Positions 32,601 through 64,000 of a stretch of 64,000 bases of DNA are shown here, piece by piece. The stretch is from Lota lota. Taxonomy: Eukaryota; Chordata; Actinopteri; Gadiformes; Lotidae. Within the stretch, counting starts at the first letter, position 1. Every line of letters begins with the position of its first letter. The notes beneath the pieces are model-generated. The model saw only the letters and a program-made list of their open reading frames with translations, was not told the DNA's origin and did no database searches. Position numbers and translations under genes: made by a program. The stretch is from contig JACYXH010000705.1 in assembly GCA_026745465.1 (NCBI GenBank), forward strand, positions 2,712,501-2,776,500, in the 5' to 3' direction.

Positions 32601-34766
32601 TACTAACTCACTTTAGAACTCATGTAAACCCATCCGTTACTAACTCACTTTAGAAGTCATGTAAACCCATCCGTTACTAACTCACTTTAGAACTCATGTA
32701 AACCCATCCGTTACTAACTCACTTTAGAAGTCATGTAAACACATCCGTTACCAACTCACTAAACAACTCATCCAATCTGTTACTAACTCACTTAATAACT
32801 CAAAGGTATATTTGCCTATTTTAAAGGCAATATGATGTCGCATCTAAACAACATTCCATCAGATAGATGTAGGATCTAGAGGAGCTCCAGGTCCAGGGCT
32901 AAGGGTTAACCCTGGATCTTGAGGAGCTCCAAGTCCACCCTCGCAGGCACCCACCTGTACACATGCTGTTGTCGTGGCCGGAGATGGTGAAGCCCCCCTC
33001 ACAGCTGCACCGCGTGGAACCCTGGAGGCGGGTGCAGAGGGAGGGCCGGGTGGAGGGAGCAGGGGTGGAGGCAGGAGATGGGGCCGGGTGGGAGCGAGGA
33101 GAGAAGGAGGGCATGGAGGATGATGAGGAGCTGCTGAGGGCTGGAAGGGTGAAAGGTCAAAGAAGGATACGGTATCAGTCCTACATCTACTGGGTCTAGA
33201 GTACAGTATCAGTACTAGACCTACTGGGTCTTCGTCGCAGGAGAAAAACTCACGCCGGCACATGGACTTCTGTCCGCTCCATTTCCGTGACTCCAGGCAG
33301 ATGCGGGTCCGTGGGCCAATCAACTCATAGCCAGACTTGCACAGGAAGTGGACCTCATGTCCGACACTGAATACTCTCCCCAGCCTCTTGCTGTGGGCGG
33401 GAAGCTCCGGTCTGGGGCAGGAAGCTGGGGGGGGGAGAGACCAAGGCCTTAAAGAGGAGCCACATAGAGCTCCGCTCCTGGAGCTCTTAGTGGCTCTTTG
33501 AAGTCTTAGTGGCTCCAGGATGCAGGACTATGCTAGCAATTGTTTCAACCCTTTGCTCCTTACCATTTTCTGAAGTTTTCCAGGAGGCCAGTGCTGCAAT
33601 GCTGTTGACCAAGGCACTGAGCTTCTTCCTTAGCGAGTGCAGGCTCTTCTGGTACGACACTTCATGGGTAGCCAGCATCTTCTCCACTTGACCGAGAGAG
33701 GTCTGCAGCTCCTGATTGGATGGACAGTCCTGGGTGGGCGGGGCACAAGAAAAGGTTTGAACTGATATGCTTGTGGATGCTGAAAACATGCAAGGCTACT
33801 TGTGTGTACAGCAACCTGTGATCTGAGAGCAGCTTCTAGCCTGTCCCTATGAAACACAGCAGGTTCTGTTGCTTACACCTTGCTGTAGAACCTCATAGAC
33901 AGCTATGTAGTCGACAGCAGCAAGATACTTCAAAGAACTGAGTATTGTATTTGAAAACGAGAAAAGGCCAGCATAATGGGTGAGTAACTTGTATATTTGT
34001 ACTGCATTTATGTATCGGTTTTCTAATCATTGGCCACTCAAAGCGCTCTACAATTAATACCCAACATTCACCCATTCATAGACACATTCCCAGTCCGACG
34101 CCGGTGTCAGCCATGCAGGCAGCAGCCAGCTCGTCAGGAGTCTTGCTCAGGGACACCCTAACACTCAGCTAGTAGGTTAGGGTTCAAACCAGCAACCTTC
34201 ATAACCCAACCTCATTAGCACTGCGGCCCAGTAACCTCTCTTCTCACAATTGAAGAGTACCGGAGAGCATGTGAAGAGTCACATGCTGCCAATTCCATCC
34301 CACAGCTGCCAACTGAGAACACTAAATACTCACAAAATAATGCAAAGGGTTCCATTGCGCTGTATCTGAAAATCTGTCTGTCTAGTAGAGACTACAGGTA
34401 CCAGGTCTACTTTAAGCCAATCGATTGTCATTTGGCTCCTGAACAAATACCTTGGGTATGGATACTTTATGTATTGAGGCCATTAATGAACCCTGAGGGA
34501 TGTTTTCTATATAAAAATACTAAATATATTGCTGAAAATAATTTTTAAAAAAGTTGAATAATAATGAAATGTTTTATTTAGCTGTCTATGTCTGTTCATC
34601 TGATAGTTTGAAGTTTAGTTGAAACTTCGTTTTTAAGTTAGGCGGTAGGCTTCATTTAAACATCGTTCCTCCTTTCCAGGGATTCCACACTCACCTGTCC
34701 ACTTGCGCCATAGAGTTGATGCACGCAAATCACCGCCAGAACAACCACCATCTTCACCACCATCAT
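29688..34766 (-). CDS. FBLN7: FBLN7, fibulin-7, complete
   Basis: Secreted extracellular-matrix adhesion protein of the fibulin family. Coding exons in transcript order: 34695-34766, 33564-33729, 33254-33424, 32955-33140, 32152-32289, 31922-32057, 29688-30054. All have GT-AG sites and matching phases, giving 1236 nt (411 aa). Residues 1-24 are a signal peptide (MMVVKMVVVLAVICVHQLYG). Residues 25-79 form a predicted coiled coil. Residues 80-136 are a Sushi/CCP module (PRPELP, VHFLCKSGYELIGP, WSGQKSMC). A Ser/Pro linker and partial EGF-like module span 137-198. A calcium-binding EGF module starts DLDECELFPMG, and another EGF module starts DVDECERKSHNC. The C-terminal fibulin module runs from about 290 and ends VVLLVSPYGF. 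From memory human FBLN7 is about 439 aa; the shortfall equals its first EGF-like module, not found between exons 3 and 4. The gene is convergent with GLG1. Confidence 0.95.
30062..30345. repeat. Minisatellite CACCCCAGAACCACACCCACATCA in FBLN7 intron 6
   Basis: About eight degenerate copies, starting right at the FBLN7 exon 7 acceptor on the - strand. Confidence 0.85.
30400..31790. other. FBLN7 intron 6, mostly unrecognised; poly(G) run
   Basis: Unique intron sequence with scattered GGTTAGGGTTAG words and a long poly(G) run near 31585-31612. I see no exon or hairpin. Confidence 0.5.
31795..31945 (-). repeat. Triplicated FBLN7 exon 6 donor
   Basis: Three copies (about 55 bp each) of a unit that on the - strand reads CTACATCAAGACCTCCCCTG, TGTAAGCTCCGCCCACC. 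The copy at 31916-31940 is the real exon 6 end (codons YIKTSP) and donor; two further copies lie in the intron. Confidence 0.9.
32290..32760. repeat. 37-bp minisatellite in FBLN7 intron 4
   Basis: About 12 copies of ACCCATCCGTTACTAACTCA plus CTTTAGAAGTCATGTAA. Confidence 0.95.
33990..34215 (-). mobile_element. tRNA-derived SINE in FBLN7 intron 1
   Basis: On the - strand the head includes GAAGGTTGCTGGTTTGAACC, a B box, followed by GTGTCCCTGAGCAAGACTCC and a tail with GGGTGAATGTTGGGTATTAA. The layout matches a common teleost tRNA-SINE, also present in the opposite orientation at 49130-49310. Confidence 0.7.
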
Positions 34767-47649: not shown

Positions 47650-48790
47650 AGGGGTCGGTGTGACGTTGCGGTGATCGGTTTGGCATTGTGGTGATCGGTG
47701 TAGTGATTATGATCAGTGTGGCGGTGTGGTGATTGATGTGGCGGTGTGGTGTTGTGATGATCGTTGTGTTGGTGTTGTGATGATGATCGGTGTGGCGTTA
47801 TGGTTATGATGATTGGTGTGGCGTTGTGGTGATCGGTGTGGAAATCGGTGTGGCATTGTGGTTTTGATGATCAGTGTGGCGTTGTGGTGATTATGATCGG
47901 TGTGTTGTTGTGGTGATCAGTGTGGCGGTGTAGTGATCGGTGTGGCGTTGTGGTTATGATGATCAGTGTTACGTTTTGGTGATCGTAGTGGCATTGTGGT
48001 GATGATGGTCGTTGTGGCATTGTGGTGATCGGTGTGGTGATCGGTGTGGCATTGAGGTTATGATGATCGGTGTGACGTTGTGGTGATCGGTGTGGCGTTC
48101 TGGTGACGATCATTGTGGCGTTGTGTTGATCGGTGTGGCATTGTGGTAATCGGTGTGGCGTTGTGGTTATGATGATCAATTTTGCGTTGTGTTGATCTGT
48201 GTAGTGTTTTTGTGATGATGATTTGTGTGGCGTTGTGGTGATCGTTGTGGTGATTGGTGTGGCGGTGTGATTATGATGATCGGTGTGGCGTTGTGGTTAC
48301 GATGATCGGTGTGGCATTGCGGTGATCGGTGTGGTGTTGTGGTGATTTGTGTGGCGTTGTGGTGATGATGATCGGTGTGGCGTTGTGGTGATGATGATCG
48401 GTGTGTCGGTGTGGCGGTGTAGTGATCGGTGTGGTGTTGTCATTATGATGATCAGTGTGGCGTTGTGGTGATCTGTGTAGCGTTGTTTGGATGATGATAG
48501 GTGTGACGTTGTGGTGATCTGTGTGGCATTGTGGTGATCGGTGTAGTGATTATGATCGGTGTGGCGTTGTGGTGATCGGTGTGTTGGTGTGGTGATGATT
48601 GGTTTGGCATTGTGGTGATGATGATCGTTGTGGCGTTGTGGTGATTGGTGTGGCGGTGTGGTGATCAGTGTGGTGTTGTGGTTATGATGATCGGTGTGGC
48701 ATTGTTGTGATGATGATCGGTGTGGTGTTGTGTTTATCATGATCAATGTTACGTTGTGGTGATCGTAGTGGCATTGTGGTGATGATGAAA
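47650..48790. repeat. Degenerate minisatellite GATCGGTGTGGCGTTGTGGT
   Basis: About 1.1 kb of imperfect GATCGGTGTGGCGTTGTGGT plus GATGAT units. His-rich open frames on the - strand are artefacts. Confidence 0.9.
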
Positions 48791-49129
48791 TGAAGAGGGT
48801 TTCCTGATCCACCTCCTCTCCACCGCCTACCTGTTGAGACCCAAGGGGGCGGAGGAAGAGGGTTTCCTGATCCACCTCTGCTGGTGTTGGTCTTTGGCCT
48901 GGAGACCAACTGGTGTTGGTCATAATGGGTGAAATTAGGGTCACGGGGCGAATCGGGAAAACGAGGGTCCAGTCCTTTTGTTACATTTTTCTTGTTCTTG
49001 TTTTTATATGTTACGTTTTGCTGCAGGGATAGAGCAGGAGGAAAAGGAGAAGCAGCAGCTGGTGTCTGAGGAAGGAGCGGATAACATCTAACTCTTGTTT
49101 TGTTCTTGTTGTACTCTCTTGGGTCGACA

Positions 49130-49310
49130 TTGCCTCGGGAGGCAGAGCAGATTGACTAGCAGTCGGAAGGTTGCTAGTTCGATCCCCGGCTCCTCCCAGC
49201 TGACTATCGAGGTGTCCCTGAGCAAGACACCGAACCCTAACCACTCCCGACGTGTTGTCGCTTTGCATGGCTGACACCTGCCGTCGGCGTGTTTTTATAC
49301 AGTCATTTTA
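49130..49310 (+). mobile_element. tRNA-derived SINE
   Basis: Contains the tRNA-like GGAAGGTTGCTAGTTCGATC with B box GTTCGATCC, followed by GTGTCCCTGAGCAAGACACC and CTGACACCTGCCGTCGGCGT. It is the + strand counterpart of the SINE in FBLN7 intron 1. Confidence 0.75.
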
Positions 49311-49499
49311 ATATTTCCATTTGATAAATAGTGATTGTCTGCAGGGCACCGTGTTCCATAGGCTAAATAAAGGACATACGCACCTAAACTAAATACAACT
49401 ATATGGATCCCAGGGACACCGGCCTTGAGGCAGGGTCATGTGACGCCAGACGAGGACGGAGACCAACCCGAGGTAAGGATATTATAAGGGGAACTGTGA

Positions 49500-50340
49500 T
49501 AATGTAGGCGATGTTTAATTAAGCGTTAGGTGAGGGATACAGTCCAATGGCGCCATCTGGCGGCGCCAGAGGAAGAGCACAGGCACGCGCCTCCTAAATT
49601 ATACAAAACAAATGCTCCTACTAAAACGTCTGTGTTGGTAGTAAAGATTACAGAAGAAGGGAGGGGGGTGGAAGGGTGAAGAAGAAAAATATTAATATAA
49701 ATGATAAAAATAATGAGTCACAACCCAAAATTATGGGAAAAGGAGGATCATGAAATATTAGAAAAACAAGATGAAAGAAAAACGTTTTATTTTATTTGAG
49801 AAACTTAATTCTAATTGAAAAAGTGAGGTGATTTTCAAAAGGCAGAAAAGGTTATTGTTGGAAGTGTGAGATGTGATGGAACTGGTTTATATACTCTGTT
49901 TTTAAATATAGAAGACTATATACTGTATGGTACGGGTGCATGTGGAGTAGAGAAAGATGGGGGGAAAGAGAGAAACAGGTTATGTGTAGGCCAGGGCGAG
50001 GGATGAGAGAGGAGGAGGCCAGGGCAAGGGATGAGAGAAGAGAAGAGGAGGGCAAGAGGAGGAGGCCAGGGCAAGGGACGAGAGAAGAGAAGAGTGCAGA
50101 AAGAGGAAGAATCTAGGGCAAGAGAGGAGAAACGTGATGAAAGATTTTTGGCAGTGATGGATGCCCTAGTTAGAAAGTGAAGGATTGTTTTTGTACTTGT
50201 AAGTTTTATTATTTAGCCTGTTTAGTTCAATAAATGTTTGTTTTTTGTGTTTGCTCTAGTAAATGTGTGATCAACTAACCTATTATTTTGTGGTTTACTA
50301 TAGCTCACTCAATCATCACTCAAAAGACTACATAGTGTGT
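49500..50340. other. Intergenic, no gene seen
   Basis: One copy of the TGGCGCCATCTGGCGGCGCC block (49550), then purine-rich GGAGGCCAGGGCAAGGGA repeats at 49985-50130 and AT-rich sequence. Confidence 0.5.
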
Positions 50341-50344
50341 GTTG

Positions 50345-50915
50345 AATAATTGATGGCGGGTGTAGTTTGGCTGGTGGGTAGAGCTGCTGGTCATAGACAG
50401 GACTGTTCTTCAGGACACGGGCATCACGGACAGACCCTGGGAAACCACAGCACACATCTAGGAACTCGCCGCGATGGTCTCAGATGGGCTGAAGCTGGAT
50501 GGATGGGAATAGCTTTCTACTAAAATAACAGCTAGCGTCCTCTGCAGGGGGCTTAATCTGGATGTGGCACCCGTCAACAGCACAGACTGCCACACGAAAT
50601 CCTGGAGAGCCTGCTAACCTGGCAAAGCCAGCACCCACTTCATCGATTTGGTGTGGTTGAGGAAACCAGACAATCCTCTTCAGGAGCCCAGCTACTGTCC
50701 GGCTGACCTTATGAATGATCCTGTGGACCGAAGTCTTGGGGATATCAAACGCCCTTGACACAACTCTGTATAAGCTGCAGGGGCCTTTCCCAGCCATGAT
50801 CAGCTTCATGTGTAAGAGCAGCTGTAAGGGCTGCTATGAACTCTCTTGTCAGGTGAAGTTTGGACACATCATGAAAATAGAGCTGCAGGATAGGCACGTA
50901 GGGGTTCAACTGGCA
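50345..50915 (-). pseudogene. HARBI1-like (PIF/Harbinger) transposase relic
   Basis: On the - strand conserved blocks of the DDE nuclease appear in order: KLHLTREFIAALTAAL, then DHGWERP, SLYRVVSRAFDIPKTSVHRI, GAGFARLAGSPGF, VCAVDGCHIQIKPP (with the catalytic-type D), YFSRKLFPSIQLQPI and, after a stop, GSVRDARVLKNSPVYDQ. A frameshift/deletion after DHGWERP and an in-frame TGA at 50480-50482 (where related proteins have Cys) disable it. The N-terminus and the last catalytic region are missing. Confidence 0.85.
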
Positions 50916-50929
50916 GTATGTTGTAGGGT

Positions 50930-52370
50930 GGACATGCTATGAATATGACAAATAAAAGGGATCCAATGTTATGCAAAAGCCTCATTACAATTCCTGTAAA
51001 ATGCTATTCTGCCTGTTACCTGTTTTATATTGGTCCAACTTTTATATTTTAACTATTCTCTGTTCAGCCAACACTGTTAGGGTGGTGCAAGAGCAGCTCG
51101 ACATGTACACATGTTTTATTTACAGTGTGAGATACAAGACACTACATGTTAGGACTGCAATTGTGTGATTATATCACATAAAGTAAAATGTATATGGTTG
51201 CACAACAGAATTGGCCAGTATGTTACACGACAAATAAAATGAAGTTAAATGTAAGGCTGCTTCACGTGCAGACAGAACATGCAGCTCTGCATGAAAGTAT
51301 ATTCAACAACAGAAAACCATCTGCCAAGCAGAGAGCCATTTGTGAAAGGGGGTAACATGCCTAATGGTGACCATAGAATAGATAATGATAATAATAATAA
51401 TAGGACTTGTTTAATTAACAAAATAAAGATAACTAAAGGACATTACTAGGAGAATAGCAATGACAGAGAAATGCATATGTAATTGAACAGTCGTGAATGA
51501 ATACTGCACTTTAGAATTTCCAATTAAGTTACAAACATTATGAAGTAACAACAGCAGAGCTCTTCGGGTGGACCTCCGACAGAATGCGCATCTCTGACGA
51601 GCTCGGTGAGTGGCCGTTTGTTGAATCTCCAAGGTAAGACATGTAGCACCAACCATGTGGTCCAACATTTATCACGTCGCGTTACGGACTGCGTGATGTA
51701 TGAGCCAAGTCAAAAAAGGTGAAGGCGCAATGGTGAAATCAATAATTACTGCCCCGCCCCCCTCTCTTGTTGCAGGTATGCTAATCAGTGAAATGACCTG
51801 TAGTATGTCCCAATTGTATGCATACTGTGTGCAACAGTACGTACTTTGTAAGAGTAGCTGCAGTACGTACTACAAGGAAAAAGTATGCGATTTGGAACGC
51901 AGCCTGGTAGAAGTCTTTGACAATCACTATTATTCAGCACACCTGATGCATGATTGCCAATTGGGAACACCTGCCGGCCATGAGGCCACAAGAGAGCTAG
52001 ACAGAGCCAGCTACAAAGGCAGACAGAACCTCTTCAGTTGAGGAAGGATTGTGGCATATTCCCATAGTACGGTAAGCGGCCAGTGGCCCTGAAGAGGAAC
52101 CCCTTAATAAGGGTAGAGACGCTAGGAGAGAGCGACTTGCTGTGTGTGCTCCCTACCGTGTCTCACCTGTTTCCTTTGTCGTCAACCCAGCCTCTGGTTT
52201 ACCCCTGAAGCCCTTTCAGGAAACCTACCCCGGTGTGGAAAGACTTTATGTTGACTTTCACCCTCCCCGTAACCCTCACCATTTTGAATAAACCCTCTTT
52301 TACTTTCACTAATAACCTGTCTGTTTTCCGTTTTTTGCAACCAAGTAGACCGCGTCTCAAACAACATGCC
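50930..52370. other. Intergenic, transposon-like debris
   Basis: Contains a stretch at 51790-51905 rich in AGTATGTCCC/GTACGTACT words, of the sort seen near the ends of fish DNA transposons, and a stretch at 52140-52330 with AATAAA at 52287. I cannot define element boundaries. Confidence 0.35.
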
Positions 52371-52638
52371 ACACACCCTTGACGACGCTCATCCCACAAA
52401 CGATTCCCTGGCCTCTGATCCACAGCCACCTCACTCACATCATCAAAGCTGAGTACAACACAGCCAACAGTAACTTAGTCACCTTTCTTGTCATTTGATG
52501 TGGTGTTTTATGTGTTGGCTATAGTTTAAAACCCACTATATTTCTTATAAGAAGTGTGTTAATGCAGTGTTATAGGTCAACATTCATTCACGTATTTAGC
52601 TATTACTCGGGTTGGTTTAAAGTCCTTTAGGGACGCCA

Positions 52639-52713
52639 ACAGTATGCAAGTGGCGCTGAAACACATGAGGACCTAGGCCTCCCTCATGTGTTTCTAGCTC
52701 CGCTTGTGTCTGT
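52639..52713 (+). ncRNA. miRNA-like hairpin, copy 1
   Basis: The arms AAGTGGCGCTGAAACACATG (52648-52667) and CATGTGTTTCTAGCTCCGCT (52685-52704) pair. The full stem 52639-52670 / 52682-52713 has about 30 pairs, one mismatch (C54/T99) and two single-base bulges (52643, 52694). The loop is 11 nt. The layout of about 11 bp lower stem plus about 22 bp duplex is that of a Drosha substrate. Confidence 0.65.
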
Positions 52714-52825
52714 AAAGCCTGGATAATGGAGGATATACGTGAATGAATGTGGCCAAACATGCATCCTTTGTATTTGGTTGTGTTTTACACATAAGCCAAA
52801 CAGTAAAAACAGTTTTATTTCACAG

Positions 52826-52971
52826 GACCAGAACCATAGCGGCCCCAGACAGAGATCCGACAGCACCTCCAGGAGATTGGCACTCCTGACGTCTCATCCC
52901 ACAAACGGTTCCCTGGCCTCTGATCCAGAGAGGCTTCACTAACGTCAAAGCAGAGTACAACACAACCACCA
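52826..52971 (+). other. Repeated non-coding exon-like block A (copy 1 of 9)
   Basis: Bounded by TTTTATTTCACAG (acceptor) and ACCACCA/GTAAGTTAG (donor). Other copies: 54207-54352, 55303-55439, 56958-57103, 58029-58174, 59693-59838, 60898-61043, 62356-62501, 63432-63577; copy 2 has a weaker GTAATT donor. The block is the best conserved part of the unit after the hairpin. Indels shift the frame between copies, so it is probably a non-coding exon. Confidence 0.5.
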
Positions 52972-54018
52972 GTAAGTTAGAAGAGTCACCTTTCTGGTCA
53001 TTTGATTTAGTGTTTTATGTGTAGGATTTAGTTTAAAACCTGACATATTTATTGTAAGTGTGTTAATGCAGTTCTATAGGTCAACATTCATTCAGATATA
53101 TCACAGTACTCAAGATGTTTCCATGGATTAGCAAAGTAATGAACAGTATTTTATGTTCATGTTTTAGGCAAGAGTGGTGTTGTACAGAGCTGTCCAATCC
53201 AGGACTGGAGCTGGGAGCTGCAGGTGGAGGGAAGGCCAGGAGCGCTACAGTCCAAGAGATGCAGAAAGCTGAGCCAATGAACACCCCCATCTCTAATTTC
53301 TTAGTACTAATGTAATTCCATCTTCAATCAAGACTACGCTGTGTGGAAGAAGGTCCATGTACAATAAAGTGCAGCCATGTGAGTGAGCTATAGCATTACT
53401 GGAGTAAAATACATACTTGCATCGTGACAGGGAGAACAAATGTTCAGTGTGCAAATAAAACATGTTTGAACTTTCAGAAGGACTGAGGCGATGCAGATGG
53501 AGGTCGTTGAGATGGTCAGCTGGAGGTCCTTGAGATGGTCAGCTGGAGGTCCTTGCGGTGGTCAGCTGGAGATCCTTGATGTCAGCTATTTGATAAGTAT
53601 TTCTTTATGGCTATAGTTTAAAACTGTTGTGTGCAAATGAAACAAGTTTGAACTTTCAGAAGGACTAAGGCGATGCAGCTGTAGGTCCTTGGGGTGGTCA
53701 GCTGGAGGTCCTTGCTTTCAGCCATTTAATAAATATTTCTTTTTGGCTATAGTTTAAAATTGTTGTGTACAAATGTTCTATGTGCAAATAAAACACGTTT
53801 AAACTTTCAGAAGGACTGAGGCAATGCAGCTGGAGGTCCTTGTGGTGGTCAGCTGGAGGTCCTTGCTGTCAGCTATCTGATAAGTATTTCTTTATGATGG
53901 CTATAGTTTAAAACTCAACATATTTCTTATAAGAAGTGTGTTAATGCGGTGTTAGGTCAACATTCATTCATGTATTTAGCTATTGCTCGGGTTGGTTTAA
54001 AGTCCGTTAGGGACGCCA

Positions 54019-54093
54019 ACAGTATGCAAGTGGCGCTGAAACACATGAGGACCTAGGCCTACCTCATGTGTTTCTAGCTCCGCTTGTGTCTGT
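54019..54093 (+). ncRNA. miRNA-like hairpin, copy 2
   Basis: Stem identical to copy 1; only one loop base differs. Confidence 0.65.
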
Positions 54094-54548
54094 AAAGCCC
54101 GGATAATGGAGGATATACGTGAATGAATGTGGCCAAAAAAGCATCCTTTGTATTTGGTTGAGTTTTACACATAAGCCAAACAGTAAAAAACTGTTTTATT
54201 TCACAGGAGCGGAACCACACCGGCCCCAGACAGAGATCCGACAGCACCTCCAGGAGATTGGCACTCCTGACGTGTCATCCCACAAACGGTTCACTGGCCT
54301 CTGATCCAGAGAGACTTCACTAACGTCAAAGCAGAGTACAACACAACCACCAGTAATTTACAAGAGTCACTTTTCTGGTCATTTGATTTAGTGTCTTATG
54401 TGTAGGCTTTAGTTTAAAACCTGACATATTTATTGCAAGTGTTTTATTGCAGTTGTGTAGGTCAACATTCATTCAGATATATACCAGGACTCAAAACGTT
54501 TCCATGGATTAGCAAAGTAATGAACAGTAATTTATGTTCATGTTTTAG

Positions 54549-54649
54549 GCAAGAGTGGTGTTGTACAGAGCTGTCTGATCCAGGACCGGCGCTGGGAGCT
54601 GCAGGTGGAGGGAAGGCCAGGAGCGCTACAGTCCAAGAGATGCAGAAGG
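54549..54649 (+). other. Repeated non-coding exon-like block B (type I)
   Basis: Acceptor TTCATGTTTTAG, body including AGTGGTGTTGTACAGAGCTG and GCGCTGGGAGCTGCAGGTGG, donor AGAAGG/GTGAGACA. Type I copies also occur near 53168 (donor lost: GCTGAG), 57299, 60034 and 62678. Type II copies near 55629, 58363 and 61232 use a different acceptor, TTTTTTGTTCAG, and an extended 5' part. Confidence 0.45.
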
Positions 54650-55111
54650 GTGAGACAATGAACAGCACATCTCTAATTTGTTAGTACAAATGTAATTCAA
54701 TCTTCAATCAAGACTACACTGTGTGGAAGAAGGTCCATGTAAAATAAAGTGTAGCCATCTGAGTGAGCTATAGCATCACTGGAGTAAAATATATATTTTT
54801 TATCATGACAGGGAGAGCAAATGTTCAGTGTGCAAATAGAAGACGTTTGAACTTTCAGGACTGAGGCCATGCAGCTTGAGGTCCTTGTGGTGGTCAGCTG
54901 GAGGTCCTTGCGGTGGTCAGCTGGAGGTCCTTGCGGTGGTCAGCTGGAGGTCCTTGCTGTCATCTATCTGATAAGTATTTCTTTATGATGGCTTTAGTTT
55001 AAAACCCACCACATTTCTTATAAGAAGTGTGTTAATGCAGTGTTATAGGTCAACATTCATTCACGTATTTAGCTATTATTCGGGTTTGTTTAAAGTCCTT
55101 TAGGGACGCCA

Positions 55112-55186
55112 ACAGTCTGCAAGTGGCGCTGAAACACATGAGGACATAGTACTCCCTCATGTGTTTCTAGCTCTGCTTGTGTCTGT
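55112..55186 (+). ncRNA. miRNA-like hairpin, copy 3
   Basis: The loop changes to ACATAGTACT. One C-to-T in the 3' arm (GCTCTGCTTG) keeps a G-U pair; a basal A-to-C costs one pair. Confidence 0.65.
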
Positions 55187-56770
55187 AAAGACCGGATAAT
55201 GGAGGATATACGTGAATGAATGTGGCCAAACACACATCCTTTGTATTTGGTTGAGTTTTACACATAAGCCAAACAGTAAAAACTGTTTCTGTTTTTTCAC
55301 AGGAGCGGAACCACAGCGGCCCCAGACAGAGATCCGACAGCAGATTGGCACTCCTGACGTCTCATCCCACAAACGGTTCCCTGGCCTCTGATCCAGAGAG
55401 GCTTCACTAAGGTCAAAGCAGAGTACAACACAACCACCAGTAAGTTAGAAGAGTCACCTTTCTGGTCATTTGATTTAGTGTTTTATGTGTACGCTTTAGT
55501 TTAAAACCTGACGTATTTATTGTAAGTGTTAATGCAGTTTTACAGGTCAACATACATTCAGATACATAACAGTACTCAAGACGTTTCCATGGATTAGCAA
55601 AGTAATGAACAGTATTTTTTGTTCAGGGTCAGGTTGTAGTCTAGAGCAGGGTTTTACAGAGCTGTCCAATCCAGGACCGGCGCTGGGAGCTGCAGGTGGA
55701 GTAAAGACCAGGAGCGGTACAATCCAACAGATGCAAAAGGGTGAGACAAGGAACAGCACATCTCTTTAATTTTAGTAGTAATGATTGTAATTCCATCTTC
55801 AATCAAGGCTACACTGTGTGGAAGAAGGTCCATTTAAAAGAAAATGTAGCCATCTGAGTGTGCTATGGCATTACTGGAGTAAAATACATACTTGCATTGT
55901 GACAGGGAGAACAAATGTTCAGTATGCAAATGAAACACGTTTTAACTTTAAGAAGGACTGAGGCGATTCAGCTGGAGATCCTTGGGGTGGTCAGCTGGAG
56001 GTCCTTGCGGTCAGCTGGAGGTCCTTGATTTCAGCCATTTAATAAATATTTCTTTTTGGCTATAGTTTAAAATTGTTGTGTACAAATGTTCTATGTGCAA
56101 ATAAAACATGTTTGAACTTTCAAGACTGAGGCGATGCAGCTGGAGGTCATTGTAGTGGTCAGCTGGAGGTCATTGCGGTGGTCAGCTGGAGGTCCGTGCG
56201 GTGGTCAGCCTGAGGTCCTTGTGTTGGTCAGCTGGAGGTTTTTGCGGTGGAGGTCAGATATTTGATTGATGATTTGATATGTGATTTATGGCTATAGTTT
56301 AAAACTGTTTTGTACAAATGTTCAGTGTGCAAATAAAACACGTTTGAAATTTCAGAAGGACTGAGGCGATGCAGCTGGAGGTCCTTGCGGTGGTCAGCTG
56401 GAGGTCCTTGCGGTGGTCAGCTGGAGGTCCTTGCGGTGGTCAGATGGAGGTCCTTGCTGTCAGCTTTCTGATAAGTATTTCTTTATGGCTGTAGTTTAAA
56501 ACTGTTGATTGCAAATAAAACACGTTTGAACTTTCAGAAGGATTGAGGCTATGCAGCTGGAGGTCCTTGCGGTGGTCAGATGGAGGTCCTTGCGGTGGTC
56601 AGCTGGAGGTCCTTGCTGTCATCTATCTGATAAGTATTTGTTTATGATGGCTATAGTTTAAAACCCACCATATTTCTTATAAGAAGTGTGTTAATGCAGT
56701 GTTATAGGTCAACATTCATTCACGTATTTAGCTATTACTCGGGTTGGTTTAAAGTCCTTTAGGGACGCCA

Positions 56771-56845
56771 ACAGTATGCAGGTGGCGCTGAAACACATGA
56801 GGACGTAGTACTCCCTCATGTGTTTCTAGCTCCGCTTGTGTCTGT
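56771..56845 (+). ncRNA. miRNA-like hairpin, copy 4
   Basis: A-to-G in the 5' arm (GCAGGTGG) gives a G-U pair; the loop is ACGTAGTACT. Confidence 0.65.
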
Positions 56846-57837
56846 AAAGCCCGGATAATGGAGGATATACGTGAATGAATGTAGCCAAACACGCATCCTT
56901 TGTATTTGGTTGAGTTTTACACACAAGCCAAACAGTAAAAACGGTTTTATTTCACAGGAGCGGAACCACAGCGGCCCCAGACAGAGATCCGACAGCACCT
57001 CCAGCAGATTGGCACTCCTGACGTCTCATCCCACAAACGGTTCCCTGGCCTCTGATCCAGAGAGGCTTCACTAACGTCAAAGCAGAGTACAACACAACCA
57101 CCAGTAAGTTAAAAGATTCACCTTTCTGGTCATTTGATTTAGCGTTTTATGTGTACGCTTTAGTTAAAAACCTGACCTATTTATTGTAAGTGTTAATGCA
57201 GTTTTATAGGTCAACATACATTCAGATATATCACAGTACTCAACACGTTTCCATGGATTAGCAAAGTAATGAACAGTAATTTATGTTCATGTTTTAGGCA
57301 AGAGTGGTGCTGTACAGAGCTGTCTGATCCAGGACCGGCGCTGGGAGCTGCAGGTGGAGGGAAGGCCAGGAGCGCTACAGTCCAAGAGATGCAGAAGGGT
57401 GAGACAATGAACAGCACATCTCTAATTTGTTAGTACAAATGTAATTCAATCTTCAATCAAGACTACACTGTGTGGAAGAAGGTCCATGTAAAATAAAGTG
57501 TAGCCATCTGAGTGAGCTATAGCATCACTGGAGTAAAATATATATTTTTTATCATGACAGGGAGAGCAAATGTTCAGTGTGCAAATAGAAGACGTTTGAA
57601 CTTTCAGGACTGAGGCCATGCAGCTTGAGGTCCTTGTGGTGGTCAGCTGGAGGTCCTTGCGGTGGTCAGCTGGAGGTCCTTGCTGTCATCTATCTGATAA
57701 GTATTTCTTTATGATGGCTTTAGTTTAAAACCCACCACATTTCTTATAAGAAGTGTGTTAATGCAGTGTTATAGGTCAACATTCATTCACGTATTTAGCT
57801 ATTACTCGGGTTTGTTTAAAGTCCTTTAGGGACGCCA

Positions 57838-57912
57838 ACAGTCTGCAAGTGGCGCTGAAACACATGAGGACATAGTACTCCCTCATGTGTTTCTAGCTCT
57901 GCTTGTGTCTGT
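57838..57912 (+). ncRNA. miRNA-like hairpin, copy 5
   Basis: Identical to copy 3, consistent with recent dimer duplication. Confidence 0.65.
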
Positions 57913-59505
57913 AAAGACCGGATAATGGAGGATATACGTGAATGAATGTGGCCAAACACACATCCTTTGTATTTGGTTGAGTTTTACACATAAGCCAAAC
58001 AGTAAAAACTGTTTCTGTTTTTTCACAGGAGCGGAACCACAGCGGCCCCAGACAGAGATCCGACAGCACCTCCAGCAGATTGGCACTCCTGACGTCTCAT
58101 CCCACAAACGGTTCCCTGGCCTCTGATCCAGAGAGGCTTCACTAAGGTCAAAGCAGAGTACAACACAACCACCAGTAAGTTAGAAGAGTCACCTTTCTGG
58201 TCATTTGATTTAGTGTTTTATGTGTACGCTTTAGTTTAAAACCTGACGTATTTATTGTAAGTGTTAATGCAGTTTTACAGGTCAACATACATTCAGATAC
58301 ATAACAGTACTCAAGACGTTTCCATGGATTAGCAAAGTAATGAACAGTATTTTTTGTTCAGGGTCAGGTTGTAGTCTAGAGCAGGGTTGTACAGAGCTGT
58401 CCAATCCAGGACCGGCGCTGGGAGCTGCAGGTGGAGTAAAGACCAGGAGCGGTACAATCCAACAGATGCAAAAGGGTGAGACAAGGAACAGCACATCTCT
58501 TTAATTTTAGTAGTAATGATTGTAATTCCATCTTCAATCAAGGCTACACTGTGTGGAAGAAGGTCCATTTAAAAGAAAATGTAGCCATCTGAGTGTGCTA
58601 TGGCATTACTGGAGTAAAATACATACTTGCATTGTGACAGGGAGAACAAATGTTCAGTATGCAAATGAAACACGTTTTAACTTTAAGAAGGACTGAGGCG
58701 ATTCAGCTGGAGGTCCTTGGGGTGGTCAGCTGGAGGTCCTTGCGGTCAGCTGGAGGTCCTTGATTTCAGCCATTTAATAAATATTTCTTTTTGGCTATAG
58801 TTTAAAATTGTTGTGTACAAATGTTCTATGTGCAAATAAAACATGTTTGAACTTTCAAGACTGAGGCGATGCAGCTGGAGGTCATTGTGGTGGTCAGCTG
58901 GAGGTCATTGCGGTGGTCAGCTGGAGGTCCGTGCGGTGGTCAGCCTGAGGTCCTTGTGTTGGTCAGCTGGAGGTTTTTGCGGTGGAGGTCAGATATTTGA
59001 TTGATGATTTGATATGTGATTTATGACTATAGTTTAAAACTGTTTTGTACAAATGTTCAGTGTGCAAATAAAACACGTTTGAAATTTCAGAAGGACTGAG
59101 GCGATGCAGCTGGAGGTCCTTGCGGTGGTCAGCTGGAGGTCCTTGCGGTGGTCAGCTGGAGGTCCTTGCGGTGGTCAGATGGAGGTCCTTGCTGTCAGCT
59201 TTCTGATAAGTATTTCTTTATGGCTGTAGTTTAAAACTGTTGATTGCAAATAAAACACGTTTGAACTTTCAGAAGGATTGAGGCTATGCAGCTGGAGGTC
59301 CTTGCGGTGGTCAGATGGAGGTCCTTGCGGTGGTCAGCTGGAGGTCCTTGCTGTCATCTATCTGATAAGTATTTCTTTATGATGGCTATAGTTTAAAACC
59401 CACCATATTTCTTATAAGAAGTGTGTTAATGCAGTGTTATAGGTCAACATTCATTCACGTATTTAGCTATTACTCGGGTTGGTTTAAAGTCCTTTAGGGA
59501 CGCCA

Positions 59506-59580
59506 ACAGTATGCAAGTGGCGCTGAAACACATGAGGACGTAGGCCTCCCTTATGTGTTTCTAGCTCCGCTTGTGTCTGT
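59506..59580 (+). ncRNA. miRNA-like hairpin, copy 6
   Basis: C-to-T in the 3' arm (CCTTATGTG) gives a G-U pair; the loop is ACGTAGGCCT. Confidence 0.65.
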
Positions 59581-60706
59581 AAAGCCCGGATAATGGAGGA
59601 TATACGTGAATGAATGTGGCCAAACAAGCATCCTTTGTATTTGTTTGAGTTTTATACATAAGCCAAACAGTAAAAACGGTTTTATTTCACAGGAGCGGAA
59701 CCACAGCGGCCCCAGACGGAGATCCGACAGCACCTCCAGGAGATTGGCAATCCTGACGTCTCATCCCACAAACGGTTCCCTGGCCTCTGATCCAGAGAGG
59801 CTTCACTAACGTCAAAGCAGAGTACAAGACAACCACCAGTAAGTTAGTAGTCACCTTTTCTGGTCATTTGATTTAGTGTTTTATGTGTACGCTTTAGTTA
59901 AAAACCTGACCTATTTATTGTAAGTGTTAATGCAGTTTTATAGGTCAACATACATTCAGATATATCACAGTACTCAACACGTTTCCATGGATTAGCAAAG
60001 TAATGAACAGTAATTTATGTTCATGTTTTAGGCAAGAGTGGTGCTGTACAGAGCTGTCTGATCCAGGACCGGCGCTGGGAGCTGCAGGTGGAGGGAAGGC
60101 CAGGAGCGCTACAGTCCAAGAGATGCAGAAGGGTGAGACAATGAACAGCACATCTCTAATTTGTTAGTACAAATGTAATTCAATCTTCAATCAAGACCAC
60201 ACTTTTTGGAAGAAGGTCCATGTAAAATAAAGTGTAGCCATCTGAGTGAGCTATAGCATCACTGGAGTAAAATATATATTTTTATCATGACAGGGAGAGC
60301 AAATGTTCAGTGTGCAAATAGAAGACGTTTGAACTTTCAGGACTGAGGCCATGCAGCTGGAGGTCCTTGCGGTGGTCAGCTGGAGCTCCTTGATGTCAGC
60401 TATTTGACAAGTATTTCTTTATGGCTGTAGTTTAAAACTGTTGATTGCAAATAAAACACGTTTGAACTTTCAGAAGGATTGAGGCTATGCAGCTGGAGGT
60501 CCTTGCGGTGGTCAGATGGAGGTCCTTGCGGTGGTCAGCTGGAGGTCCTTGCTGTCATCTATCTGATAAGTATTTCTTTATGATGGCTATAGTTTAAAAC
60601 CCACCATATTTCTTATAAGAAGTGTGTTAATGCAGTGTTATAGGTCAACATTCATTCACGTATTTAGCTATTACTCGGGTTGGTTTAAAGTCCTTTAGGG
60701 ACGCCA

Positions 60707-60781
60707 ACAGTATGCAAGTGGCGCTGAAACATATGAGGACCTAGGCCTCCCTCATGTGTTTCTAGCTCTGCTTGTGTCTGT
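60707..60781 (+). ncRNA. miRNA-like hairpin, copy 7
   Basis: C-to-T in the 5' arm (AAACATATGAGG) gives a U-G pair, and the same 3' arm C-to-T as copy 3 is present. Confidence 0.65.
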
Positions 60782-62168
60782 AAAGCCCGGATAATGGAGG
60801 ATATACGTGAATGAATGTGGCCAAACACGCATCCTTTGTATTTGGTTGAGTTTTACACCAAAGCCAAACAGTAAAAACTGTTTCTGTTTTTTCACAGGAG
60901 CGGAACCACAGCGGCCCCAGACAGAGATCCGACAGCACCTCCAGCAGATTGGCACTCCTGACGTCTCATCCCACAAACGGTTCCCTGGCCTCTGATCCAG
61001 AGAGGCTTCACTAAGGTCAAAGCAGAGTACAACACAACCACCAGTAAGTTAGAAGAGTCACCTTTCTGGTCATTTGATTTAGTGTTTTATGTGTACGCTT
61101 TAGTTTAAAACCTGACGTATTTATTGTAAGTGTTAATGCAGTTTTACAGGTCAACATACATTCAGATACATAACAGTACTCAAGACGTTTCCATGGATTA
61201 GCAAAGTAATGAACAGTATTTTTTGTTCAGGGTCAGGTTGTAGTCTAGAGCAGGGTTGTACAGAGCTGTCCAATCCAGGACCGGCGCTGGGAGCTGCAGG
61301 TGGAGTAAAGACCAGGAGCGGTACAATCCAACAGATGCAAAAGGGTGAGACAAGGAACAGCACATCTCTTTAATTTTAGTAGTAATGATTGTAATTCCAT
61401 CTTCAATCAAGGCTACACTGTGTGGAAGAAGGTCCATTTAAAAGAAAATGTAGCCATCTGAGTGTGCTATGGCATTACTGGAGTAAAATACATACTTGCA
61501 TTGTGACAGGGAGAACAAATGTTCAGTATGCAAATGAAACACGTTTTAACTTTAAGAAGGACTGAGGCGATTCAGCTGGAGGTCCTTGGGGTGGTCAGCT
61601 GGAGGTCCTTGCGGTCAGCTGGAGGTCCTTGATTTCAGCCATTTAATAAATATTTCTTTTTGGCTATAGTTTAAAATTGTTGTGTACAAATGTTCTATGT
61701 GCAAATAAAACATGTTTGAACTTTCAAGACTGAGGCGATGCAGCTGGAGGTCATTGTGGTGGTCAGCTGGAGGTCATTGCGGTGGTCAGCTGGAGGTCCG
61801 TGCGGTGGTCAGCCTGAGGTCCTTGTGTTGGTCAGCTGGAGGTTTTTGCGGTGGAGGTCAGATATTTGATTGATGATTTGATATGTGATTTATGGCTATA
61901 GTTTAAAACTGTTTTGTACAAATGTTCAGTGTGCAAATAAAACACGTTTGAAATTTCAGAAGGACTGAGGCGATGCAGCTGGAGGTCCTTGTGGTGGTCA
62001 GCTGGAGGTCCTTGCTGTCAGCTATCTGATAAGTATTTATTTATGATTGCTATAGTTTAAACCCACCATATTTCTTATAGGAAGTGTGTTAATGCAGTGT
62101 TATAGGTCAACATTCATTCATGTATTTAGCTATTACTCGGGTTGGTTTAAAGTCCTTTAGGGACGCCA

Positions 62169-62243
62169 ACAGTATGCAAGTGGCGCTGAAACACATGAGG
62201 ACGTAGTACTCCCTCTTGTGTTTCTAGCTCCGCTTGTGTCTGT
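62169..62243 (+). ncRNA. miRNA-like hairpin, copy 8
   Basis: An A-to-T transversion in the 3' arm (CCTCTTGTG) makes one mismatch; otherwise as copy 4. Confidence 0.6.
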
Positions 62244-63243
62244 AAAGCCCGGATAATGGAGGATATACGTGAATGAATGTAGCCGAACACGCATCCTTTG
62301 TATTTGGTTGAGTTTTACACATAAGCCAAACAGTAAAAACGGTTTTATTTCACAGGAGCGGAACCACAGCGGCCCCAGACAGAGATCCGACAGCACCTCC
62401 AGGAGATTGGCACTCGTGACGTCTCATCCCACAAACGGTTCCCTGGCCTCTGATCCAGAGAAGCTTCACTAACGTCAAAGCAGAGTACAACACAACCACC
62501 AGTAAGTTAGAATAGTCACCTTTCTGGTCATTTGATTTAGTGTTTTATGTGTAGGCTTTAGTTTAAGTGTGTTAATGCAGTTGTGTAGGTCAACATTCAT
62601 TCAGATATGTCTCAGTACTAAAGACGTTTCCATGGATTAGCAAAGTAATGAACAGTATTTTATGTTCATGTTTTAGGCAAGGGTGGTGTTGTACAGAGCT
62701 GTCAGATGCAGGACCGGCGCTGGGAGCTGCAGGTGGAGGGAAGACCCGGAGCGGTGCGGTGCAGTCCAAGAAGGTGAGACATTTAACAGCACATCTCTTT
62801 CATTTTAGTAGTAATGATCGTAATTCCAGCTTCAATCAAGGCTACGCTGTGTGGAAGAAGGTCAATGTAAAATAAAGTGTAGCCATCTGAGTGAGCTATA
62901 GCATTACTGGAGTAAAATACATGTTGGTATCATAATGGGGAGAACAAATGTTCTGTGTGCAAATAAAACCCGTTTGAACTTTCAGAAGGACTGAGGCGAC
63001 GCAGCTGGATTTTCTTGCGGTGGTCAGCCTGAGGTCCTTGCGGTGGTCAGCTGGAGGTCCTTGTGGTTGTCAGCTGGAGGTCCTTGCTGTCATCTATCTG
63101 ATAAGTATTTCTTTATGATGGCTATAGTTTAAAACCCACCATATTTCTTATAAGAAGTGTGTTAATGCGGTGTTATAGGTCAACATTCATTCACTTATAT
63201 GTAGGTGTTACTCGGGTTTGTTTAAAGGCCTTTTGGGACTTCA

Positions 63244-63318
63244 ACAGTCTGCAAGTGGCGCTGAAACACATGAGGACCTAGGTCTCCCTCATGTGTTTCT
63301 GGCACAGTTTGTGTCTGT
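63244..63318 (+). ncRNA. miRNA-like hairpin, copy 9 (most diverged)
   Basis: The upper stem is intact. The lower 3' arm is altered (TTTCTGGCACAGTTTGTG): two changes give G-U pairs, one adds a mismatch and one falls in the existing mismatch. Confidence 0.5.
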
Positions 63319-63589
63319 AAAGTCTGTAAAATGTAGGATACATGTGAATGAATGTGGCCAAACACGCATCATTTGTATTTGGTAGAGTTTTACACAGAAG
63401 CCAAACATTAAAAAACGTTTTTATTTCACAGGACCAGAACCACAGCGGCCCCAGACAGATCCGACAGCACTTCCAGGAGATTGGCACTCCTGACGACTCT
63501 CATCCCACAAACTGTTCCCTGACCCTGGCCTCGGATTCACAGCTACCTGTCATGTCATGAAAGCTGCACAACCAACAGTAAGTTGTTAA

Positions 63590-64000
63590 CCTTCCTTGAT
63601 ATTTGATTTACAGTATCTTTGTGATGGCTAAAGTTGAAAATACAACATATTAGTGTTAAAGCACTTTTATAGGTCAACATATTTCAGATATGACAGTTGT
63701 TAACAGTGTTGATTATTGTCTAGTCTTTCTTTTTTTTTTTACTTCATTGTGACTGCTGCGTGATGTGTCATTATGTGCAGTGTTTTATTAAATGCATTTT
63801 CTGGCAGTGCCATTTATTTGAAGCCGGTCTCAACTCACCGTCTGTTGGTACAGTAAATGCAATTGTGCTGGTGGATTTCACCTCTAGTTAGTAATCTAGT
63901 TTTCTCCATTTAATCTGTGCTGTGAACTTGGACTATGCATTGACATTGAACATGTTAATGGTTGAATTTCTTTTGGCAACTTGAAGTCCATAATCCAGGA
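63590..64000. other. Downstream flank of the array, nothing recognised
   Basis: Unique AT-rich sequence with a poly(T) run near 63730. A weak inverted repeat exists around 63800 but does not fold convincingly. Confidence 0.4.

Follow-up and report, generated by a model that had tools for sequence, protein, structure and literature searches.

Are the nine similar hairpins strung along one stretch of Lota lota DNA the precursors of a new family of microRNAs (miRNAs)? The window analysed here comprises 64,000 nucleotides (nt) of assembly GCA_026745465.1 (contig JACYXH010000705.1, forward-strand positions 2,712,501 to 2,776,500), in which an earlier, sequence-only reading had seen a tandem cluster of nine hairpins resembling primary miRNA transcripts (pri-miRNAs). 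We located all nine copies of a 76-nt hairpin on the + strand, between positions 52638 and 63318, and an inexact scan of the - strand of the window found none. The window holds one member of a dispersed family of tandem-repeat genes that are probably non-coding, and the existence of a dispersed family of tandem, hairpin-bearing and apparently non-coding units is more certain than its miRNA status. As to the latter, we regard it as an evenly balanced question whether the hairpins form a young intronic miRNA family that originated by inverted duplication, lies in a dispersed tandem non-coding gene and makes miRNAs.

Hairpin structure and the surrounding foldback

The fold of copy 1 has 4+10+3+13 = 30 base pairs (bp), one mismatch (h17/h62, numbering the hairpin from h1 to h76), two bulges (h6 and h58) and an 11-nt loop (h34-h44), which is the geometry given in the sequence-only reading; some copies have one to several pairs fewer. 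From the stem geometry, the predicted 5p strand would occupy h14-h34 and the predicted 3p strand about h45-h67. The minimum free energy (MFE) ranged from -38.4 to -43.2 kcal/mol in copies 1-8 and was -31.4 in copy 9. When all copies were folded, as had been proposed, none of 1000 dinucleotide shuffles reached the energy of the real hairpin in any of the nine cases, with z scores of -6.9 to -8.2 (copies 1-8) and -3.7 (copy 9) and a minimal folding free energy index of 1.04-1.14 and 0.83, respectively. Folded with 60-nt flanks, the core stem had a mean pairing probability of 0.91-0.997 across the nine copies and the lower stem one of 0.81-0.99, except in copy 9 (0.46). Hairpins of animal miRNAs have a duplex of about 22 bp, a short loop and a stem of about 30-35 bp, and copy 1 agrees with this in its 30 bp and 11-nt loop, as do the nine copies in their stability (z from -3.7 to -8.2). 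The folds support a pri-miRNA-like shape, on which cleavage by Drosha and Dicer may be postulated.

For comparison we searched the window's own assembly (575 Mb, 867 contigs) and collected 87 hairpins, of which two at fragment edges were dropped to give 85 copies, and a further three without enough flank to give 82 units, both sets representing 13 arrays. The hairpin had an MFE of -35 or lower in 76 of the 82 units.

When folded with their flanks, all nine hairpins of the window turned out to be the inner domain of an imperfect foldback of about 185 nt, which comprises outer and middle stems and, on its 5′ arm, a small side hairpin. In the three copies in which the 5′ arm was aligned with the reverse complement of the 3′ arm, the score was 32 (copies 1 and 4) and 20 (copy 9), the maxima of 500 shuffles each being 13, 12 and 14 for copies 1, 4 and 9. 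The inverted repeats are imperfect and about 80-100 nt long, and local inverted duplication is the apparent origin of the foldback, because a piece of its 5′ outer arm recurs as a direct repeat 3′ of the exon-like block of its own unit.

A foldback of this kind could also be a structured part of a long RNA, or a splicing or chromatin element, rather than a small-RNA precursor. Copy 9, in which two outer-stem pairs are altered on both sides and still pair, would fit such a role, as would the 10 of 11 double-change cells that are paired in the outer stem of the 85 copies, although these may represent one or two inherited events. Single substitutions in the outer stem, however, keep pairs at expectation (15/57 against 14.4 expected), and low diversity is confined to the 5p strand, as described below, and we consider such a role highly improbable.

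Exon-like blocks and the predicted host transcript

About 110 nt downstream of each hairpin begins an exon-1-like block of 146 nt (137 nt in unit 3), which in all nine units is preceded by AG, followed by GT and interrupted by stops in all three frames, one or more per frame. Scored with splice-site matrices, its acceptors rank between the 92nd and the 99.9th percentile among all AG in the window, and its donors at the 97.5th-97.7th percentile in eight of the nine units and at the 83.5th in unit 2. The sites found for an exon-2-like block lie at the 96th-99.8th percentile of the window, units 1, 3, 5 and 7 having only one of the two sites sought. An exon-3-like region with a 23-nt minisatellite, which recurs in other units, showed no clear donor at 53494..53579. 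Across the 82 units of the 13 arrays, the exon-1-like block retains its acceptor AG in 76, its donor GT in 81 and stops in all frames in 78. A protein-coding exon 1 was rejected on account of these stops (9/9 units in the window, 78/82 overall). Since splice signals and stops recur together across units, they suggest that the host is a spliced non-coding transcript with the hairpin in an intron.

A family of arrays dispersed in the genome

Exact copies of the predicted 5p 21-mer number 91 in the genome (its reversed control has none), and they sit at 15 places on 13 contigs. Among 100 listed of 102 matches with up to two mismatches, eight more have one mismatch, all of them on contigs with arrays, and 99 lie at the 15 family places; among the matches listed, only a two-mismatch site falls outside the hairpin family. 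A 3p 21-mer has 68 exact copies and 22 more with one mismatch. The array region itself was found on at least 12 contigs (40 of 105 candidates scored). The sequence-only reading had spoken of a tandem, rapidly amplifying cluster; tandem amplification is indeed observed, with hairpin units 1067-1668 nt apart, but the array is not a single cluster, being one of about 15 dispersed places.

The arrays also have their surroundings in common. Pieces of the 5′ flank are 87-99% identical between the window and eight other loci, with gaps, rearrangements and a more diverged stretch resembling a short interspersed nuclear element (SINE). At least nine other contigs carry most of the 3′ flank (40 of 77 candidates scored in the genome search), and homology continues for about 2.2-3.1 kb beyond the window in the loci compared. 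Because 5′ and 3′ flanks are common to dispersed arrays, the arrays seem to have been copied whole. Unit identity is the same between arrays (95.5%, 3309 pairs) as within them (95.5%, 261 pairs).

These shared flanks and equal identities are also what would be expected of a commonplace segmental duplication, dispersed and containing a tandem repeat, in which the foldback is left over from an old inverted duplication and yields no functional small RNA, and the copies are alike through youth or gene conversion; the abundance of minisatellites in the rest of the window points the same way. Against this stand the splice signals kept in most of the 82 units and the hairpins that remain stable in 76 of them. 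We return to this explanation with the diversity data.

The sequence-only reading had named a dispersed, genome-wide miniature inverted-repeat transposable element (MITE) as the finding that would overturn its proposal. The imperfect inverted repeats are of a kind with a MITE or another small inverted-repeat transposon trapped in a tandem array, and MITEs are known sources of miRNAs, such as hsa-mir-548 (PMC1784062). A MITE would nevertheless leave many solitary dispersed copies, and we found one among the 15 places (C453:752569), which retains the family's 3′ end. The confinement of the 91 exact 5p copies to family places, with all but one of the listed matches, led us to reject a genome-wide MITE, and the direct repeat of the 5′ outer arm within the unit fits a local inverted duplication instead. 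No target-site duplication was seen by eye at the foldback ends, no systematic search having been made. The MITE reading is thus already largely refuted, and we give it very little credence. A hairpin formed from inverted repeats is a point of likeness to hsa-mir-548/Made1 and other MITE-derived miRNAs (PMC1784062), but the present one is restricted to one array family and not scattered genome-wide.

A long foldback of about 185 nt in high copy number might also be the source of hairpin RNA or Piwi-interacting RNA (piRNA), the foldback or the whole array feeding endogenous small interfering RNAs (siRNAs) or piRNAs directed against a repeat or a selfish gene. However, no near-perfect target was seen outside the family, the search not extending to less perfect ones, apart from the single 5p match elsewhere noted above; elsewhere in the window no match to the hairpin was found, and one (E 0.42) to the hairpin with its flanks. 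We therefore regard a role of this kind as improbable.

The places differ in their arrangement. Contig C489 carries two arrays in opposite orientation, at 425606-444393 (L017, L018, L019), with seven hairpins per array facing each other in a large palindrome; C453 carries one array in addition to the solitary copy, and C235 two hairpins with the 5′ flank of the family. The window array ends about 4 kb from the contig end (L029, C705:2776000-2780122); for those on C379, C343, C321, C702 and C517 the distance to a contig end is at most about 20 kb, and those on C232, C300, C453 and C489 are farther away. Contigs may end there because the repeats disrupt assembly, or some arrays may be close to chromosome ends.

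Sequence diversity and selection

In animal miRNAs the mature strand is more conserved than the flanks, and compensatory change in the stem is supporting evidence, not required. The sequence-only reading had described both arms as nearly invariant and the loop as variable. All four of the loop types it named are present, copy 9 adding a fifth, and in copies 1-8 the loop is more variable than its surroundings (4/11 against 14/149 columns, p = 0.02). Within the window the near-invariance of the arms does not exceed that of the flanks, as detailed below for the duplex. The diversity tests on the genome copies left out the hairpins on C235, that at C453:752569, and those in parts of C517, C321, C615 and C702. 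With limits (h14-h33) fixed from stem geometry before the genome copies were examined, the 5p strand of the 85 copies had a diversity of 0.010 compared with 0.045 in the flanks (column-permutation p = 0.0025). All arm columns taken together differed from the flanks with p = 0.03, and the loop reached a diversity of 0.130. In the 82 units, aligned to a 736-nt reference, 717 windows of 20 nt were compared, and the four with the least diversity begin at h13-h16, which places them on the predicted 5p strand.

Several observations weigh against a functional miRNA. In copies 1-8 the duplex varies like the flanks (4/41 against 14/149 columns, p = 0.66), and the differences of copy 9 show it no better kept than its surroundings (p = 0.25). 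The 3p strand of the 85 copies has a diversity of 0.049, no lower than the flanks (p = 0.61), and the two strands jointly differ from the flanks with p = 0.09 only. When whole arrays were resampled, the minimum fell within h8-h20 in only 383 of 1000 trials, and the 5p deficit counted by distinct alleles was weak (p = 0.047). Inner-stem substitutions keep pairs at the expected rate (13/27 against 12.7 expected, for the 30 pairs of copy 1; 13/33 against 12.9 with a consensus fold including two loop pairs), a test of low power because the hairpin copies are young, and covariation was rejected as proof of the stem. The hairpin is nested inside a larger foldback, and the acceptor AG is missing in six of the 82 units. 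No CNNC motif was seen at its expected place when the sequence was read by eye.

The columns are moreover linked by descent. From this linkage, the resampling, the weak allele-based deficit and the expected rate of pair keeping, we judge the evidence for selection to be modest and one-sided, resting with the 5p strand. A segmental duplication carrying no functional small RNA would account for a duplex no better conserved than its flanks in the window and for pair-preserving changes not in excess in the inner stem, but would not lead one to expect that the lowest-diversity windows of the unit coincide with the predicted 5p strand. We take it to be a real possibility, short of a likely one.

Comparison with known miRNA families

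The sequence-only reading had recognised neither miR-430 nor any other known family in the arms, and this was borne out. No Rfam 15 family, miR-430 included, matched the window at the gathering cut-off; below it, only mir-365 (- strand, best E 3.3) and mir-627 (E 3.7) fell over the hairpins, at chance level. Six further loci (L014, L016, L018, L026, L029 and L030) gave two matches (E up to 1), both in L016 and far below the cut-off, and a known Rfam miRNA family was rejected. A search of main texts of papers for arm fragments of 13-19 nt turned up none on miRNAs; two matching papers, on E. coli engineering and on a fungus, were regarded as chance. Neither AAGUGCU nor AAGUGCA, the seed of miR-430 type, was seen on reading the hairpin arms.

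In fishes, miR-430 forms high-copy tandem miRNA repeats, and by tandem high copy number it is the closest system (PMC10417697). The present family differs in lacking its seed and a match to it at the Rfam cut-off, and in its units of 1.07-1.67 kb with exon-like blocks. In C19MC, hairpins lie between many repeated non-coding exons (PMC6346411), and the comparison made by the sequence-only reading holds in that the Lota lota hairpins likewise lie between repeated stop-filled exon-like blocks, a likeness of architecture and not of homology. The layout is read from splice signals and stops around the hairpins, and the host transcript is predicted. C19MC occupies one region, whereas the near-identical hairpins described here are spread over some 15 places; Rfam revealed no sequence relation between the two, and no Alu-type driver is shown. 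C19MC is the closest known architecture. In the rodent C2MC (Sfmbt2 cluster), the unit consists of B1 repeats within an Sfmbt2 intron, whereas here stop-filled exon-like blocks repeat with the hairpin.

Other features of the window

The features of the array are collected in Table 1. Many other contigs carry copies, 72-82% identical, of a segment about 104 nt long within the 3′ flank (63800-63903), among them series on C92 (spaced about 1.1-2 kb) and C287 (spaced about 2 kb). In the tandem array on C92, a 4.5-kb piece is otherwise without the hairpin unit, and a search of that array for miRNA-like hairpins gave only weak folds. An open frame of the - strand (50483-50833), which falls within the 5′ flank common to the arrays, gave sub-threshold matches to transposase-type helix-turn-helix domains. 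Positions 50012-50704 are absent from the C343 array, and the interval 48700-50200 has only two neighboring short stretches in common with L029, the longer of which we take to be SINE-like; with these three observations, a clear DNA-transposon identity was rejected. Farther upstream, stretches of Cys_rich_FGFR repeats, presumably GLG1-like, extend over 3000-25000 with many minisatellites and microsatellites between them, and an open frame with a Sushi domain lies on the - strand at 32862-33527.

Table 1. Positions in the window of the array, its hairpins and foldback, the exon-like blocks and the flanks.
Feature	Position	Strand	Basis or remark
Tandem array, nine hairpin-bearing units and an incomplete, diverged unit on the left	52361..63720	+	limits approximate, ends by eye
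5′ flank common to eight other loci	49015..52360	+	about 2.5-4.9 kb aligned
3′ flank, largely present on at least nine other contigs	63590..64000	+	81-100% identical
Hairpin copy 1 (h1-h76)	52638..52713	+	fold; core pairing probability 0.98
Hairpin copy 2	54018..54093	+	fold
Hairpin copy 3	55111..55186	+	fold
Hairpin copy 4	56770..56845	+	fold
Hairpin copy 5	57837..57912	+	fold
Hairpin copy 6	59505..59580	+	fold
Hairpin copy 7	60706..60781	+	fold
Hairpin copy 8	62168..62243	+	fold
Hairpin copy 9 (most divergent copy, in the last unit; some of the lower stem disrupted)	63243..63318	+	fold
Foldback around hairpin copy 1	52575..52757	+	fold; other eight copies laid out similarly
Perfect 16-bp outer stem, copy 1	52580-52595 / 52735-52750	+	fold
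Diverged partial exon-1-like block, left end of array	52374..52472	+	sequence comparison
Exon-1-like block, unit 1 (146 nt)	52826..52971	+	AG/GT, stops in all frames
Exon-1-like block, unit 2	54207..54352	+	AG/GT, stops
Exon-1-like block, unit 3 (137 nt)	55303..55439	+	AG/GT, stops
Exon-1-like block, unit 4	56958..57103	+	AG/GT, stops
Exon-1-like block, unit 5	58029..58174	+	AG/GT, stops
Exon-1-like block, unit 6	59693..59838	+	AG/GT, stops
Exon-1-like block, unit 7	60898..61043	+	AG/GT, stops
Exon-1-like block, unit 8	62356..62501	+	AG/GT, stops
Exon-1-like block, unit 9	63432..63577	+	AG/GT, stops
Exon-2-like block, unit 2	54549..54649	+	splice-site scores
Exon-2-like blocks, further units	57298-57398, 60032-60132, 62677-62773	+	splice-site scores
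Exon-3-like region with 23-nt minisatellite, recurring in other units	53494..53579	+	

Proposed mechanism and significance

If the hairpins do constitute a young intronic miRNA family, an inverted duplication of about 90 nt of intron would most likely have created the foldback, and RNA polymerase II would produce a long spliced transcript across the array. Drosha/DGCR8 would then cut about 13 bp above the base of each hairpin and Dicer would release a duplex, the 5′ strand of which, about UGGCGCUGAAACACAUGAGGA, may be loaded as the miRNA. The mark of an animal miRNA is reads of 21-23 nt that come from both arms, start at a fixed 5′ position and leave 2-nt overhangs at the 3′ end. By analogy with miR-430, some 99 near-identical copies could supply a high dose of one miRNA. 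We infer transcription, splicing, processing, loading and the existence of targets from the features of the DNA. In its most specific form, which we put forward tentatively as possible rather than probable, the proposal is that of a new lineage-specific miRNA family, born by inverted duplication in the intron of a tandem-exon long non-coding RNA gene that was copied whole to about 15 places with about 100 copies of one 5p strand, a multi-locus, dispersing counterpart of C19MC.

Should the hairpins not be processed, the family would illustrate well that tandem amplification is enough by itself to mimic a miRNA cluster. If they are processed, they would represent a further high-copy miRNA system in fishes beside miR-430, caught young, while its birth can still be read in the inverted duplication, in the repetition of exon-like blocks and in the duplication of entire arrays, and would allow a direct test of why some miRNAs reach about a hundred near-identical copies.

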